A DNA stretch of 64,000 bases, taken from the NCBI RefSeq assembly GCF_001809535.1, contig NZ_KV797910.1, forward strand, positions 84,560 through 148,559, given 5' to 3'. Under the pieces are notes generated by a model. It did not search any database. It was not told the DNA's origin and saw only the letters and a program-made list of their open reading frames with translations. Source of the stretch: Aerococcus sp. HMSC062A02 (lineage in GTDB: Bacteria > Bacillota > Bacilli > Lactobacillales > Aerococcaceae). This document shows, in pieces, positions 11,101 to 57,753 of this stretch. The translations under genes and the position numbers were made by a program. Position 1 is the first letter of the stretch; each line of letters starts with the position of its first letter.

Positions 11101-11139
11101 ATAGAAGGGATCTTCTAATTCATTTAAGGAAATCCTATA

Positions 11140-11275
11140 GGGATAGCGCCAGGCCTAGGAATAGGTGACGAGGACTGAACTTATCGAATAATCGGCGGAT
11201 GGTTCAGAGGCTGCATGGTCTATAGGCAGGCCCTCAAATACACAAGGGGCAGGCCAGATGCTGGAAGATCTAGTT
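11140..11275 (+). ncRNA. glmS ribozyme (glucosamine-6-phosphate-activated)
   Basis: The leader carries AGCGCC at 11145-11150, TGACGAGG, a TTATCGA segment and TCGGCGGATGG. These are the conserved core of the glmS self-cleaving ribozyme and sit directly upstream of glmS. By analogy the scissile bond is between A11145 and G11146. Binding of GlcN6P triggers cleavage and lowers glmS mRNA. The 3' boundary is approximate; recognition is by motif order and gene context. Confidence 0.92.
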
Positions 11276-21456: not shown

Positions 21457-21468
21457 CTTAAATGAGAT

Positions 21469-21503
21469 GATGAGGCTGGGACAAAAGTTCCAACCTCTTT
21501 TTA
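21469..21503 (+). terminator. terminator after pdxK
   Basis: GAGGCTGGGAC pairs with GTTCCAACCTC around an AAAA loop, followed by T5. The GGCTGGGACAAAAG start is shared with the adjacent palindromic element. Confidence 0.7.
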
Positions 21504-21533
21504 AATAGCGAACGTTTCTCAAAAACCTGCTCC

Positions 21534-21640
21534 AAAAGTCAGGCCTGACATCCACTTCACGAACTATGAGAAATCGTTAGTAAACGTTTTCTCATAGTTC
21601 GCTCCAGTGGTTCAGGCCTGATCGACTTTTGTCACACTCT
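21534..21640. repeat. intergenic palindromic repeat element
   Basis: A roughly 100-bp imperfect palindrome. The outer arms are AAAAGTCAGGCCTGA (21534-21548) and TCAGGCCTGA plus TCGACTTTT (21612-21630). The inner arms are CGAACTATGAGAAA (21560-21573) and TTTCTCATAGTTCG (21588-21601), with CCACT/AGTGG between them. The right arm is repeated at 1-38. It occupies most of the 320-bp gap between pdxK and the flippase gene. It resembles a REP/MITE-like structured repeat; no encoded protein is visible. Confidence 0.75.
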
Positions 21641-21690
21641 CATATCTTTTCTCTTGACCTTATAATTCTGTAAATTTGACAGGCAAGTTA

Positions 21691-43510: not shown

Positions 43511-45070
43511 GTGGCAGTAAATGAAAGTATGAAAGCTGTAGAAAAAATTATTGTGCTCGACTACGGCAGTCAGTACAATCAGTTAATTACCCGTCGCATC
43601 CGTGAGTTTGGTGTGTATTCAGAACTACTATCCCATCGCTTGTCGGCAGAAGAGATCCAAGCAGAAGGTAATGTCAAAGGGATTATCTTATCTGGAGGAC
43701 CTAATTCTGTTTATGCTGATGGAGCCTTTGATGTCGATGCTGGCATCTTTGACTTAGGTATTCCTATCCTCGGTATTTGTTACGGGATGCAATTGATTAC
43801 CCAAAAACTGGGTGGCCGAGTTGAAGCTTCCGATAAGCGGGAATACGGCCAACAAGAAATGACCATCAAGAAAACAGCTTCTAAAATCTTTGCTGGTTTA
43901 GAAGAGGAAGAGCAAGTATTGATGAGCCATGGAGACCGGATTGCTGAAATTCCTGAAGGCTTTGAAATTACTGGGGTTGCTCCCCATAGCCCAGCCGCTG
44001 CTTTTGAGAATGAAGCGGAAGAGATTTACGGTTTCCAATTCCACCCAGAGGTTCGCGCTTCTGTAAACGGTAACCAAATGTTACGTAACTTTGTCTTCAA
44101 TATCTGCGGTGCTTCAGGGGATTGGTCTATGGAAGACTTTATTCAAATCAAGACAGCAGAAATTCAAGAACTTGTGGGCGATCGCAAGGTGCTCTTGGGA
44201 CTTTCTGGCGGTGTTGATTCATCCGTAGTAGGTGTGCTTCTCCAACGGGCTATTGGCGACCAGCTTGTCTGCATCTTTGTGGACCATGGGCTCCTGCGTA
44301 AGGGTGAAGCTGACCAAGTGATGGAAACTTTAGGTGGCAAATTTGGCTTAAACATCATTAAAGCGGATGCTGCAGACCGCTTCCTTGGCAAATTAGCTGG
44401 AGTTGAAGACCCTGAAAGAAAACGTAAGATTATCGGTAATGAATTTATTGAAGTTTTTAACGACGAAGCGACCAAGCTCAATGGGGTAGACTTCCTTGCC
44501 CAAGGGACCCTCTATACCGATGTCATTGAATCAGGGACAGAAACCGCTCAAACAATTAAATCCCACCACAATGTTGGTGGCTTGCCAGAAGATATGAGCT
44601 TTGAATTAATTGAGCCGCTGAATACCCTCTTCAAGGATGAAGTCCGTGCTTTAGGGACAGCCTTAGGTATGCCAGATCCAATTGTTTGGCGCCAACCCTT
44701 CCCAGGTCCTGGTCTAGCCATCCGTGTAATTGGAGAAGTTACGGAAGAAAAATTACATATTGTGCGTGAATCCGATGCTATTTTACGTGAAGAAATTGCT
44801 AAGAATGGTTTGGAACGCGATGTTTGGCAATACTTTACGGTATTGCCAGGCTTCAAATCCGTTGGCGTCATGGGCGACCAGCGAACCTATGAATATACGA
44901 TTGGTATCCGGGCCATCACATCTATTGATGGGATGACAGCCGAATGGTCCCGTTTACCGCATGAACTCTTAGATACCATCAGCCGTCGGATTGTCAATGA
45001 AGTCTCCGGGATCAACCGCGTCGTCTATGATATCACCAGTAAGCCACCATCGACCATCGAATGGGAATAA
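43511..45070 (+). CDS. guaA: GMP synthase (glutamine-hydrolysing)
   Basis: A 519-residue enzyme converting XMP to GMP. The N-terminal class I glutamine amidotransferase has its nucleophile in GICYGMQL and the histidine/glutamate in FQFHPEV. The ATP pyrophosphatase domain has the PP-loop GLSGGVDSS. The C-terminal dimerisation domain ends KPPSTIEWE. The start is GTG at 43511 after AGGAGAG. The 3' end of guaA is a known insertion target for genomic islands and prophages, and the prophage here begins just past its stop. Confidence 0.97.
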
Positions 45071-45079
45071 CATTAAATT

Positions 45080-45123
45080 AGACCTAGAATCCTGATATAA
45101 AAGGCTTTCTAGGTCTTTTTTTA
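45080..45123 (+). terminator. terminator after guaA
   Basis: AGACCTAGAA (45080-45089) pairs with TTCTAGGTCT (45107-45116), followed by T7. The end overlaps the last codon of the reconstructed integrase on the other strand. Confidence 0.88.
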
Positions 45124-46219
45124 TTGCCCTGGGCTTAATTTGGACTTATTTAATAAAGCAGCAACTTCGGCTTGTTTAGTAGGATAAAGGTGGGAATAGG
45201 TATTTAAAGTTGTTTCAATATTTTTGTGACCAAGCCTTTCCTGGATAGTTAATGCATTAACGCCTAAGTTGATGAGATGGCTGGCGTGGCTATGCCGCAA
45301 GTCATGGATTCTAATTTTTTTTTACACCTGCATGCTTGGCTAAGGTATTTAACTTATTGCCAATGCTAGATTTCACAACTGTAAAAAGTCTTTGGTTTGG
45401 TTCGTAACCATATAAAGTATCTAGATATTGCTTAAGCATATCGAATATAAAATCCGGAGCCACGATATCTCGAATCGAGTTTTCAGTTTTGGGCTTGCGA
45501 ATTTTATTTTTAACATTTGCAGTGACATATGTTTTTGTGATGCTGATGGTCTTAGTCTCAAAATTAAAATCATTTAAGCTTAAGGCTTGTAGTTCTCCGA
45601 TTCGCATACCAGTATAAAATAATAAGTGGTAGATGAAGAGGTACATAAATTCTGTTGAATCTTGAGCATTTAGCTGATTCATAGATTGGTTGAACTCATC
45701 TATAGTCCAAAAAGTGATTTCTTCTCTATTTTTTCTGCCCATACTTCCAGCTTGCCGAACAGGATTAGCTTTCAGCTCATGAACATCCACAGCATAGTTA
45801 AAAAGGGCAGACAGCTCATTATTAACGCCTTTGAGATAGGTTTGGGAGTAAGGCTTACTGTACTTGTTAGTCTTTTCCATCATGTGATTTTGCCATTTTC
45901 TGATGTCCTTTACTTTGATGGCATTAACAGGCTTCTTACCAAAGTATGGGATGATGTGGGTTTTAAATATATTTTTCTTACGGTAAAAAGTGGTATCTCG
46001 CACTCTAACTTTAGCATCTTTTAGATATTCTTCCGCCAAAGTTTCCAACTTCATTTCAGGATTCCCCTGCTGCTGAAGGAGAAACTCACGTTCGAATTCT
46101 TGTGCTTCTCTTTTAGTGATAAAGCCTCGCTTCTTCTTTTGCTTTCTCTCTCCGTTATGATTTTCGTAGTAAAAACGGCTCATCCATTTTCCGGTCTTCT
46201 CATCTTTGTAAGCTGGCAT
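45121..46219 (-). pseudogene. int: tyrosine-recombinase integrase, frameshifted at an A9 tract
   Basis: The leftward frame from ATG 46219 encodes about 302 residues: an AP2-like N-terminal arm-binding segment (YKDEKTGKWMSRFYYENHNG), a SAM-like core-binding domain, and the start of the catalytic domain with the first arginine (TGMRIGELQAL). It stops at 45311 after AGVKKN. In another frame the sequence continues IRIHDLRHSHASHLI, then GHKNIETTLNTYSHLY, to a stop at 45121, supplying the missing His/Arg/His/Tyr residues. The break is a run of nine A (minus strand, 45315-45323); eight would restore the frame. This is a real mutation, a sequencing slip, or transcriptional slippage. Confidence 0.9.
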
Positions 46220-46291
46220 AGGCAAATCATCCCTTCTATGCTAAAATTAGGTATGCAAAAAGTGCACACCTGTTGTGTGTTTTTTGGTACC

Positions 46292-53213: not shown

Positions 53214-53504
53214 ATGAGTATTTATGAATCACAATTACACGATAGATGGGGAAGGCCTGCAGAGCCTAGAGAATTAAAGCATATCCCTGTTGGTCAAGAT
53301 TGGAAGGGTAATACGATTTACCTGGATGATGGGAAGGATTACATGTGCTACTTCCCTGGTGAGTATGTTGATGTTACTGAGCTGAGTGACTATCTCATCT
53401 ACATCTATAAAACGGATGAGGGTGCAGCAGTCGATTTGATGGCTGAAGCTGTTGCTAATGGCCAATTATTAACAGCAATGGATTTATATGAGGAGGCAGA
53501 ATAA
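53214..53504 (+). CDS. unknown 96-residue phage protein
   Basis: An acidic protein, MSIYESQLHDRWGRPAEPRE onward, with the ordered segments IPVGQDWKGNTIYLDDGKDY and YLIYIYKTDEGAAVDLMAEAV. ATG at 53214 with AAGGAGA upstream. Its stop overlaps the recT start by one base, so it is coupled to the recombination genes. A GACTAG/CTAGTC inverted repeat lies at 53162-53179. Confidence 0.72.
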   Translation: MSIYESQLHDRWGRPAEPRELKHIPVGQDWKGNTIYLDDGKDYMCYFPGEYVDVTELSDYLIYIYKTDEGAAVDLMAEAVANGQLLTAMDLYEEAE

Positions 53505-54532
53505 TGGCAAATGAAGTACAACAAGCGTCTCAGAAAACACTAACGACAGGCATTATTAATCGTGTAGGAGAAATGGAAAAAGAGGGATTAGTGATTCCTA
53601 GCGATTACTCACCAGCTAACGCCTTGAACATTGCTTACCTGCAACTAGAAGAAAGCGGCGTTCTCAATAAGGTAACGCCCCAATCAGTGGCTAAAGCTTT
53701 GCTGAACATGGTGATTCAAGGCCTAAGCCCAGCGAAGACACAGGTCTACTTCATCCCATATGGTAATACGCTACAGATGCAGCGTTCCTACTTCGGCACA
53801 CAAACAGCAATTAAGCGTTTAGACGAAGTGGACGATGTATGGGCCAATGTCATTTATGAAGATGACGAGTTTGAAATGACAATTGATGAAAAAGGTGTTG
53901 AACGCTTTGTAAAACATAAGACGAATTGGCAAAATCGTGATGGTGAAATTGTTGGAGCTTATGCCATTGTGGATACTAGATCGAGAGGGCGCCTGCTAAC
54001 AGTAATGACTAAGAAAGAAATTGATGCCTCCTGGTCCCAGGGAAAGACAAAAAATGTCCAACAAAAATTCCCCCAAGAAATGGCCAAGCGAACAGTTATT
54101 AATCGTGCAGCTAAGAATATCCTAAATACGTCAACAGACAATGATTATCTTGTGAATGCAATTAATGACACGACTGAAAATGAATACGATCAAAAGAAAC
54201 GTCGTCAAGATGTCACTGATAGTGCTCCAGATCGAGAGGGGGATCAACTGATCGAAAAGCTGAAAGAGAAAAAACAAGCTAAAACTAAAGAGTCAGTTGA
54301 ACAACCTAAAAATGATGTTCCGGATGAAGTAATTGAAGCAGAGATTCTTGAAGACTCTCCGGATGAACCGGAAACTCCTGATCAATCTGAATCCTCCGGA
54401 GAACTTACAGAGGATGAATTAGCAGAGCTCAAAGCGCAATCAGAAGCCTTTGCCAAAGAGCAAGTAGAGGATGCTCCGGAAGAGAAGCAAGTAGATCTGT
54501 TTGGCAAGAATATTGGTGATTTCTATGAGTAA
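53504..54532 (+). CDS. recT: RecT-family single-strand annealing protein
   Basis: A 342-residue protein. The RecT core spans about 30-230: YLQLEESGVLNKVTPQSVAK, ALLNMVIQGLSPAKTQVYFI, PYGNTLQMQRSYFGTQTAIK. The C-terminal 100 residues are acidic and disordered (VIEAEILEDSPDEPETPDQS). It anneals complementary strands after exonuclease resection. The partner nuclease is encoded next, overlapping by 8 bases, which matches a RecE/RecT-like pair. Confidence 0.95.
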   Translation: MANEVQQASQKTLTTGIINRVGEMEKEGLVIPSDYSPANALNIAYLQLEESGVLNKVTPQSVAKALLNMVIQGLSPAKTQVYFIPYGNTLQMQRSYFGTQTAIKRLDEVDDVWANVIYEDDEFEMTIDEKGVERFVKHKTNWQNRDGEIVGAYAIVDTRSRGRLLTVMTKKEIDASWSQGKTKNVQQKFPQEMAKRTVINRAAKNILNTSTDNDYLVNAINDTTENEYDQKKRRQDVTDSAPDREGDQLIEKLKEKKQAKTKESVEQPKNDVPDEVIEAEILEDSPDEPETPDQSESSGELTEDELAELKAQSEAFAKEQVEDAPEEKQVDLFGKNIGDFYE

Positions 54533-55448
54533 GCAAGAAGAATTACAAAAGCTCAACGATGATAGCTATTACTACTCAAACGAGTCGAGCTGGAAGTACA
54601 TGTCCGCTTCTCAGTATAAAGACTTCCTGGAGTGTGAAGCAGCAGCCCTGGCTAAGCTAAAAGAGGACTGGCAGCCGACTAGTGACCCTACAGCGCTCTT
54701 AGTTGGTAACTACGTCCATTCCTACTTCGAGTCTCCGGAAGCTCATGCAGCCTTCAAAAACGCCAACAACGAGGCGATGTTTAAACCAGCAACGGTAGCA
54801 GAGCTGAAAGAGGGGTTGGACGACCTCAATATTTCTTATAAGAAGTCTGCTAAGAAAGATGAACTCATTGAGCTCTACGGGGACCATACCATGCCACATG
54901 GGGGCTTACTCAGCCCCTTCAAGGTGGCTGACCGGATGATTGAACGTGTCAAACGAGAACCCCTCTTTGACTTACTTTGGCAGGGTGACAAAGAAGTCCC
55001 GGTCATTGGTGAGTTTGGCGGTGTCCAGTGGAAAGGTAAGATTGACCTACTCAACGTAGAAGATGGTATCTTTATTGATTTGAAGACGAATGCTGATTTC
55101 AGCCGTAGATACTGGGACAAACGGTATATGGGCTGGGTAAGCTTTGTTGAAGCGTTTGGCTATGTCCGGCAGATTGCTATCTATGAGTACCTGCTAGAGC
55201 AGGAGTATGGCAAGCCATTTGAAGGCTTCATCTATGCCGTATCGAAGCAAGATCCCTGTGATGTAGAAGCTATCCGGATTGATGACTATAAAAAGGATTT
55301 TGAGCTGACCAACACTAAAGAACGCGTTAAGCACTTTGAAGCCGTTAAGACCGGACAAGTTGAACCTAAGATGTGTGGTAAATGTGAATATTGTCGTGAA
55401 CGAAAAGTGTTAGATGGGTTTATCTATAGTGATGAGCTCATTGATTAA
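54525..55448 (+). CDS. PD-(D/E)XK exonuclease, RecE-like, with a possible Fe-S cluster
   Basis: A 307-residue nuclease. The core has GNYVHSYFE, then GKIDLLNVEDGIFIDLKTNA (the D...DxK active site), then FVEAFGYVRQIAIYEYLLEQ. It has C37 in FLECEAAALAK and C284, C287, C290 in CGKCEYC. One N-terminal plus three C-terminal cysteines is the Cas4/AddB-type iron-sulphur layout. As recT's partner it should resect DNA ends. ATG at 54525 overlaps the recT stop; an upstream in-frame start at 54501 is less likely. Confidence 0.88.
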   Translation: MSKQEELQKLNDDSYYYSNESSWKYMSASQYKDFLECEAAALAKLKEDWQPTSDPTALLVGNYVHSYFESPEAHAAFKNANNEAMFKPATVAELKEGLDDLNISYKKSAKKDELIELYGDHTMPHGGLLSPFKVADRMIERVKREPLFDLLWQGDKEVPVIGEFGGVQWKGKIDLLNVEDGIFIDLKTNADFSRRYWDKRYMGWVSFVEAFGYVRQIAIYEYLLEQEYGKPFEGFIYAVSKQDPCDVEAIRIDDYKKDFELTNTKERVKHFEAVKTGQVEPKMCGKCEYCRERKVLDGFIYSDELID

Positions 55449-55460
55449 GGAGGAAGATAA

Positions 55461-56465
55461 GTGGCTAGGCCAACGAAAGATGGTCTTGATTACTTTCCTC
55501 TAGATGTCGATATATTTGAAAATGCAAAGATTGAAGCCATTGCTGGTGAATTTGGAGCCAAGGGTGAGCTCTTAGTAATCAAACTGTTATGCGCGGTATA
55601 CAAAGAAGGATACTACGTTGTATGGAATGAATTGCTAAAGATGCAGCTCTTGAAACGCGTCCAGGGAGCAAGTATTGGATTTTTGGAACAAGTGGTCAAC
55701 CGCTTAGTTGAATGGGGAACCTTTGATAAAAACCTGTTTAACTCGGCTAAGGTACTCACTTCAGTACGGATCCAAGAAAACTACCGTTTAGCCACCAGCC
55801 GGCGCAAAAATATCGATATGAGTCGTTATTGCTTACTCGATGTAGACAATAACCCTAACTCAAGTGGAGTTAATGACAACATTAATCCACAAAGTAAAAG
55901 AAAAGAAAGTAAAAGAGATCAAAGTAAATTAAATAATATATCATCAACATCAAAAACTAGTTCTTTTAGTGCACCTGAAAATAAAAATCCGGGCGAAAAC
56001 TCGGATGATGTGGATGTTGTTGATGATGATTTGCCACCGGTATTGGGTCAAAAAACTCTGGATTTCTACCAGGACAACTTTGGCTTTTTCCAAAATTCAT
56101 TGGCTATGCAGACGGTCCAAAGTATGGCTAAGAACTATGGCGATGACTTGGTCATTCATGCTCTAACCAAAGCGATTGAGGTAGATCGGCCCATTAACTA
56201 TGCCAATACAATCCTGAAGAACTGGCAAAAACAAGGGGTGACAACTGTAAAAGAGGCAGAAGCTGCTGATAAGAGTTTTGAGCGCAAGAAGTCCAAGAAA
56301 TATGGCAGACAGAAGCGTGAAGAAGACACTCCAGAATGGCTAGAAAACCAGAAGAAGGAGCGGCAGTCGAAGACACCTGAGCAACCAAAGCAGGCGGATA
56401 CAGAGGGGGCAAAGCGCCTGAAAGAGATGATTGCCAACCGAGACAGGGGGACTATCGATGATTGA
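55461..56465 (+). CDS. DnaD-like phage replication initiator
   Basis: A 334-residue protein. The N-terminus (GLDYFPLDVDIFENAKIEAI, AGEFGAKGELLVIKLLCAVY) is the winged-helix domain found in phage replisome organisers (DUF4373-type). After a serine/asparagine-rich linker, a DnaD-like domain follows (about 195-275: LDFYQDNFGFF, NYGDDLVIHALTKAIE, INYANTILKNWQKQGV). The C-terminus is basic. It probably binds the phage origin and loads host helicase. GTG at 55461 after AGGAGGAAG. Confidence 0.88.
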   Translation: MARPTKDGLDYFPLDVDIFENAKIEAIAGEFGAKGELLVIKLLCAVYKEGYYVVWNELLKMQLLKRVQGASIGFLEQVVNRLVEWGTFDKNLFNSAKVLTSVRIQENYRLATSRRKNIDMSRYCLLDVDNNPNSSGVNDNINPQSKRKESKRDQSKLNNISSTSKTSSFSAPENKNPGENSDDVDVVDDDLPPVLGQKTLDFYQDNFGFFQNSLAMQTVQSMAKNYGDDLVIHALTKAIEVDRPINYANTILKNWQKQGVTTVKEAEAADKSFERKKSKKYGRQKREEDTPEWLENQKKERQSKTPEQPKQADTEGAKRLKEMIANRDRGTIDD

Positions 56466-56910
56466 GTTGGTCATCCCTGGGGAGTGTGTGCCTAAAGGTC
56501 GGCCTCGCTTTACGAAGGCTGGCCATGCCTACACCCCTAAGAAAACCAGGGCCTATGAAGCTAAGCTGAAACTGTACTTTAGGCGAGCAGTTAAAGAACC
56601 CATGGAGGGGCCTTTGTCAGTCACCCTGGTGATTGGTCGGCCGTTCTTGAAGAGCTTCACCAAGAAAAAGACCGCTGAGGCTTTGAATTTGGATCTCTGG
56701 CCGATTTCAAGACCTGATTTGGATAACTATGTCAAAGCAGTCTTAGACGCTGGAAATGGCATTCTTTTTGCCGATGATAGCCAGGTCTGCAGATTGCATG
56801 TTGTGAAGGTCTACTCTCCAGTAGTTGGCATTGCCTTAAGACTTCAGGAAATTGAACTATCAACGCAAGAATTAGAGCTTATCAACAAGTTAAGGGAGGT
56901 TGATTCATGA
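56458..56910 (+). CDS. rusA: RusA-type Holliday-junction resolvase
   Basis: A 150-residue endonuclease. Family signs are PGECVPKGRPRFTKAGHAYT, PKKTRAYE, and the catalytic aspartates in SRPDLDNYVKAVLDAGNGIL and FADDSQV. It resolves recombination or replication junctions before packaging. ATG at 56458 overlaps the previous gene by 8 bases, with AGGGGG upstream; it also overlaps the next gene by 4 bases. Confidence 0.94.
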   Translation: MIELVIPGECVPKGRPRFTKAGHAYTPKKTRAYEAKLKLYFRRAVKEPMEGPLSVTLVIGRPFLKSFTKKKTAEALNLDLWPISRPDLDNYVKAVLDAGNGILFADDSQVCRLHVVKVYSPVVGIALRLQEIELSTQELELINKLREVDS

Positions 56911-57155
56911 TGGCGCAGAAGTGGGTTGTCGAAAAGCAAAAATATGAACCCTATGAGCTTCCGGGAGAGAATTGCAGTCTCTACGAAGAGGATATGGACC
57001 GCATAGTAACCTGTGCTCAATGTGGAGAGCCGATGGTGTACGGCCTGGGCTATTGCTCAAGAGAAGTTCATACAGAAGTCGGCTTAGCCTATATCGTTTG
57101 TGAAGATTGCTACCGCATGGAGTGGCAGCGTAAAGCCGATTTTGAAAATCGCTAA
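56907..57155 (+). CDS. small putative zinc-ribbon protein
   Basis: An 82-residue protein with CAQC, a lone cysteine in GYCSREVH and CEDC near the C-terminus (CxxC...CxxC), a likely zinc site. ATG at 56907 overlaps the rusA stop. Unknown phage function; possibly nucleic-acid binding. Confidence 0.75.
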   Translation: MMAQKWVVEKQKYEPYELPGENCSLYEEDMDRIVTCAQCGEPMVYGLGYCSREVHTEVGLAYIVCEDCYRMEWQRKADFENR

Positions 57156-57160
57156 GTAAA

Positions 57161-57256
57161 TTACCGGATGCCTACTGGAGAGGGGCTAAACTCTCAAAAT
57201 TCTATCGTGCTCATTACTGTCAAACTTAGCCCCTCTACCCAGTAGGCATCCGGGTA
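57161..57256. repeat. 96-bp near-perfect inverted repeat between early genes
   Basis: The left arm is 57161-57189 (TTACCGGATGCCTACTGG, then AGAGGGGCTAA). The right arm is 57226-57256, complementary apart from a few extra bases. The loop is 36 bases. No T-tract follows, so it is not a standard terminator. It ends 20 bases before the ssb start. Confidence 0.9.
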
Positions 57257-57276
57257 AATTGTGAAAGGAATTGTCT

Positions 57277-57753
57277 ATGATTAACAACGTTGTTTTGGTT
57301 GGAAGGCTCACCAAAGGCGTTAGCCTTCGCTATACCCAAAGTGGTGTGGCTGTGGCCAACTTTCTTTTAGCCTGTGAGCGGAGTTTCCGTAATGCAGACG
57401 GAGAGAAGGAAACTGACTTTATCTCCTGTGTCATTTGGCGAGGCGCAGCAGAAAGCCTTGAGAAGTACACAGCAAAGGGATCGCTGATTGGCGTTGAAGG
57501 GTCCATCCAGACCAGAAACTATGAAAATGACCAGGGTCAGCGCGTCTATGTAACGGAGGTATTAGTTAGCAACTTTAGCTTGCTGGAACCAAAAGAAGTG
57601 ACGGAGAAGCGTCGGATGGGGACTGGCCAATCAACTGGGGGTTATCAAGCACCTAACAGATCTACAGCTACAGGGTGGACGAGTCAACCCCAACAATCAA
57701 ATTTCCGGCCAACAGAAGAAATTCAGATAAAAGATGATGATTTGCCGTTCTAG
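57277..57753 (+). CDS. ssb: single-stranded DNA-binding protein
   Basis: A 158-residue OB-fold protein, INNVVLVGRLTKGVSLRYTQ onward, with VEGSIQTRNYENDQGQRVYV, a glutamine/glycine-rich linker and the acidic tip DDDLPF that recruits partners. ATG at 57277 follows GAAAGGAA; an in-frame TTG two codons upstream is less likely. Phage-encoded, for replication and RecT recombination. Confidence 0.96.
   Translation: MINNVVLVGRLTKGVSLRYTQSGVAVANFLLACERSFRNADGEKETDFISCVIWRGAAESLEKYTAKGSLIGVEGSIQTRNYENDQGQRVYVTEVLVSNFSLLEPKEVTEKRRMGTGQSTGGYQAPNRSTATGWTSQPQQSNFRPTEEIQIKDDDLPF

Follow-up and report, generated by a model that had tools for sequence, protein, structure and literature searches.

What is a long, near-perfect inverted repeat doing between two early genes of a prophage? 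In the window, the 64-kb stretch of DNA analysed here, host DNA runs to guaA (named from its sequence; end at 45070) and is followed by a prophage, in which the repeat separates a zinc-ribbon-like gene from ssb. The original prediction offered three readings: a MITE-like insertion, an RNA structure controlling ssb, or part of a replication origin. Both the inverted repeat and its coordinates between these two genes were confirmed in the sequence.

The prophage starts directly after guaA with a minus-strand integrase-like gene (45311-46225), and the phage probably integrated on the 3' side of guaA (window 45070-46225). Early genes on the plus strand encode a RecT-like annealing protein (53504-54532), an exonuclease (54501-55448) and a DnaD-like replication initiator (55461-56465). 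From the initiator onwards, the order on this strand is DnaD-like initiator, RusA, zinc-ribbon gene, hairpin and ssb. The zinc-ribbon-like gene (56907-57155, plus strand, TAA stop at 57153-57155) encodes 82 amino acids with a CxxC...CxxC pattern. Its protein family is without a Pfam or PHROG match, and relatives were seen in one Dorea phage and in a few genomes from the same order. The ssb gene (57277-57753, plus strand) encodes a 158-amino acid protein with the acidic tip DDDLPF, which belongs to Pfam PF00436 (SSB, 1.3e-33) and to phrog_44. The surrounding operon had been described as tightly overlapping. This applies to rusA and the zinc-ribbon gene, which overlap by 4 nt, but not to the zinc-ribbon/ssb gap of 121 nt or the 28 nt between ssb and the next gene.

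The hairpin comprises 26 base pairs (15 + 11), interrupted by one 2-nt bulge. Its 5' arm (57164-57189, plus strand) is made up of an outer stem CCGGATGCCTACTGG (57164-57178) and an inner stem AGAGGGGCTAA (57179-57189). The 3' arm (57226-57253) contains the inner partner TTAGCCCCTCT (57226-57236), the bulge AC (57237-57238) and the outer partner CCAGTAGGCATCCGG (57239-57253). Neither the 15-bp outer stem nor the 11-bp inner stem has a mismatch. The loop (57190-57225) is exactly 36 nt, as first described, and is unpaired in both the MFE and centroid structures of the predicted fold. The originally predicted span, 57161-57256, corresponds to this stem plus a weak TTA/TAA extension beyond an extra G. 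The predicted RNA MFE of 57156-57276 was -49.5 kcal/mol compared to a shuffle mean of -26.2 (z -6.6), with 0 of 200 shuffles reaching the stability of the hairpin. In a 100-nt scan of the 64-kb window the hairpin ranked second in stability overall and first within the prophage part, the sole more stable stretch being a dispersed repeat at 21531-21630.

No T-run or U-tract lies 3' of the hairpin, where the tail reads GTAAATTGTG; the absence of poly-T noted at the outset is thereby borne out. An intrinsic terminator was considered and rejected, as the combination of a GC-rich hairpin and U-tract was not found and the terminator scan did not list the hairpin. No promoter was listed by the scan within the loop, and the loop has no pairing partner longer than 10 nt elsewhere in the window or in the sequence fetched for the related prophage described below. 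Searching 56900-57500 against Rfam release 15 gave no family match up to E = 5, and across the window nothing but glmS, at another site, reached the gathering threshold. The glmS ribozyme lies at 11134-11264 on the plus strand (RF00234, 62 bits).

A divergent copy of the hairpin was found in a different prophage, from another species of the same genus (G003:C1:3061-3162, minus strand), flanked by homologues of the same two genes and in the same orientation. Its predicted fold is similarly stable (z -6.3). Flanking coding DNA is 66% identical between the two prophages, with 59% amino acid identity for the zinc-ribbon proteins and 98 of 141 amino acids identical for the ssb products; fourfold-degenerate sites are identical at 22 of 60 positions (37%). 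In contrast, the arms are identical at 49 of 52 positions (94%), with a binomial p of ~1e-6 under the flank rate. Loop conservation extends to 28 of 36 bases by alignment count, including the words CTCAAAA, TCTAT, GTGCTC and ACTGTCAA, and the relative has 8 additional loop bases. Spacing is also kept. In both prophages the stem begins 8 nt past the zinc-ribbon stop codon, and across the two it ends 21-23 nt before the ssb start codon. In the window copy, 10 nt separate the stem from AAAGGA, the ssb ribosome-binding site (57264-57269, plus strand). The ribosome-binding site is left open, being unpaired in the predicted fold, and GTGAAAGGAA at this site is kept in the relative.

The few differences within the arms are informative as to which strand pairs. 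The 5' arm is identical at 24 of 26 positions, both differences being A to G opposite U, and the paired bases of the 3' arm at 25 of 26, the one difference again being A to G opposite U. On the ssb-sense strand, two of the three differing pairs contrast A-U with G-U, and the third contrasts U-A with U-G. As these give G-U or U-G pairs, the stem stays intact in ssb-sense RNA, with all 26 pairs kept in both prophages. In the antisense strand the same three changes become A-C mismatches, at which the predicted antisense structure of the relative is open. This strand preference would arise by chance in 1 in 8 cases among transitions, a weak signal on its own, and no compensatory double change was found in the stem between the two prophages, so covariation proper is not demonstrated. 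The retention of arms, loop and spacing in a divergent prophage, together with pairing kept in the ssb-sense only, points to selection on the hairpin as a cis-acting RNA element. Pairing alone would not require arms this similar, and their similarity suggests either that their sequence is read by something or that the stretch was recently exchanged; phage-to-phage exchange of just this stretch could raise identity and is the counterpoint to selection. Loss of the paired arms, or a place within a longer gene in homologues, had been named as outcomes that would count against the original prediction. The arms are kept as a pair in the relative, and in no homologue does the sequence belong to a longer gene.

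The distribution of the hairpin is narrow. The arm search that had been suggested against the host genome and phages was run, and it returned a single host copy and no match by blastn in phage or plasmid records. No copy besides that of the relative turned up in 15 genus and 76 family genomes, and of the ssb genes examined in the 15 from the genus, only the two prophage genes had a comparable hairpin upstream. A covariance model built from the two copies found nothing beyond them in 395 order-level and 398 class-level genomes (partly overlapping samples); three weak matches (E 0.03-0.07) looked unrelated and were set aside. The viral record IMGVR_UViG_2896020792 carries the hairpin and is the same prophage, with 100% identity where compared; only two independent hairpin sequences were thus found. 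An exact 15-mer arm search of IMG/VR gave 32 stretches, with the second arm only in the same prophage. The inner-stem pattern gave 11 viral stretches, the ten others being chance matches. A 15-mer across both stem parts gave 95 stretches in genome contigs, of which 80 were examined and none had the hairpin. The outer-stem pattern occurred at 80 loci at least, and the covariance model scored none of those listed. Where zinc-ribbon relatives from other phages or prophages were tested, the covariance model gave no match and a comparable inverted repeat was not found; where readable, they adjoin other genes.

We consider the hairpin best explained as an intercistronic RNA element uncoupling ssb expression from that of the upstream genes, via RNase III processing or as a 5' shield, and give this reading a probability of about 0.5. 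Of the three original options, an RNA structure controlling ssb is the best supported, on the conserved arms, loop and spacing and on pairing in the ssb-sense only; the MITE-like option is not supported and the origin is weakened. In the early polycistronic mRNA of the temperate phage, the 26-bp duplex would separate ssb from the genes upstream. Host RNase III would cut the duplex, or the hairpin would block the 5' side, yielding a more stable ssb mRNA of its own, and the SSB level would be set independently of the recT, exonuclease, initiator and rusA genes. The conserved loop suggests a further factor, by which it may be recognised. The hairpin has one feature of an RNase III site, being an extended intergenic duplex with same-strand genes on both sides that are presumably transcribed as one unit. 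A 26-bp duplex exceeds two turns of A-form RNA and should be long enough for an RNase III substrate, and cleavage is predicted. The counterpoint is that the arm and loop sequence is conserved beyond the need of either cleavage or blocking. SSB dose counts in phage recombination and replication, and a hairpin before ssb would be a compact control point; to our knowledge, how SSB dose is set within one long early transcript of temperate Gram-positive phages is little studied.

Precedents for such processing exist in other phages. RNase III sites in T7 are located in intergenic regions (PMC9135205). Cleavage of phage SP82 early mRNA by B. subtilis RNase III is reported by the title of Panganiban and Whiteley 1983, cited in PMC12502629, and a leader stem-loop is cleaved by E. 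faecalis RNase III (PMC12502629). The hairpin resembles the T7 and SP82 sites as an intergenic RNA duplex between phage genes, without a U-tract. It differs in that its sequence is more conserved than such sites need, and cleavage here is putative.

The chief rival to the intercistronic element is an autoregulatory operator, whose open and conserved loop of 36-44 nt would be bound by the phage's own SSB or by a different early protein. The bound protein would spread over the AU-rich ribosome-binding region and repress ssb translation once single-stranded DNA is saturated, as for T4 gp32. We regard this as possible but unlikely. The loop is fully open in both predicted folds, its conserved words (28 of 36 bases) could serve as a binding site, and the downstream gene is ssb itself. 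However, a comparable hairpin was found upstream of only 1 of 80 IMG/VR loci with related ssb, that one being this prophage, leaving 79 of 80 ssb-bearing viral loci without it. An OB-fold SSB of the bacterial type also usually shows little sequence preference.

Leaders of T4 genes 32 and 43 provide the precedents for such an operator (PMC3014915). RNase E processes the gene 32 (SSB) mRNA at a site 71 nt before its start, and this mRNA also has an upstream RNA operator; the gene 43 operator is a hairpin with a loop conserved in both T4 and RB69 (PMC3014915). As in the gene 32 leader, structured RNA here lies right before a phage SSB gene in a polycistronic transcript. The gp32 pseudoknot and UUAA(A) repeats were not seen, however: a long simple hairpin with a large loop is predicted by a pseudoknot-free folding method, and no UUAA(A) repeats lie between the hairpin and the ssb start codon. 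The SSB here is of the PF00436 type, with no sequence relation shown. These differences count against membership of the gene 32 family, but not against working likewise. With the gene 43 operator the hairpin shares a conserved loop and a position before a replication gene's ribosome-binding site, although that hairpin is 16-18 nt whereas the present one is about 90 nt with a 36-44 nt loop. In a more specific form, the loop on its rigid stem would be a sequence-specific RNA operator, allowing SSB or the zinc-ribbon protein to sense how much SSB is free and to regulate ssb. This we hold to be doubtful; if true, it would be an independent Gram-positive-phage counterpart of T4 gene 32 autoregulation.

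An element acting as DNA is improbable. On this account a cruciform or single-strand hairpin would work in replication or recombination, as part of an origin, a single-strand initiation site or a recombination boundary. The hairpin does lie within the replication/recombination module, and a DNA-bound protein could account for the conserved sequence of both arms and loop. Iteron-like repeats, however, are found inside the DnaD-like genes of both prophages and not at the hairpin, which has no direct repeats of the iteron or initiator-binding kind. In the window there are three, 15-nt-spaced, at 55890-55933, a candidate prophage origin; in the relative, the DnaD-like gene contains two 24-nt repeats (L042 5222-5269). 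The inside of the initiator gene is a usual place for such origins. The initiation genes also differ, the relative having an added DnaC-like loader as judged by sequence, whereas the hairpin stays with rusA, the zinc-ribbon gene and ssb. That the block travels between prophages with unlike initiation genes weakens the original suggestion of an origin part, although a DNA-level role remains compatible with this pattern. In DNA hairpins, moreover, the three stem changes of the relative give G-T or A-C mismatches. The hairpin is not obviously a replication origin.

A chance or neutral palindrome without function, for which absence from most relatives could speak, is very improbable given z values of about -6 and arms that are 94% identical against 37% at fourfold sites, and is refuted as far as sequence allows unless the stretch was exchanged recently.

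Equally implausible is a MITE-like mobile repeat inserted between the two genes. Inverted-repeat anatomy would suit such an insertion, as would a 7-bp direct repeat, GTAAATT, at 57156-57162 and 57254-57260 on either side of the window copy. When the two copies were compared for a target-site duplication, however, this repeat was absent in the relative, and the extended arms account for 4 of its 7 bases. The host has one copy, the only other in 76 family genomes lies at the orthologous position, and no plasmid or phage match was found. As a positive control, the same search gave 62 matches for a repeat at 21460-21650. The hairpin shares inverted-repeat anatomy with MITE-type repeats such as this one, but differs in being single copy and at an orthologous position only. 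Dispersed repeats and a functional intergenic hairpin within one window can be told apart by sequence-level constraint. The dispersed repeat at 21460-21650, with inverted ends GAGGCTGGGACAAAAGT, 62 host-genome matches and the most stable fold in the window, is a true MITE-like family.
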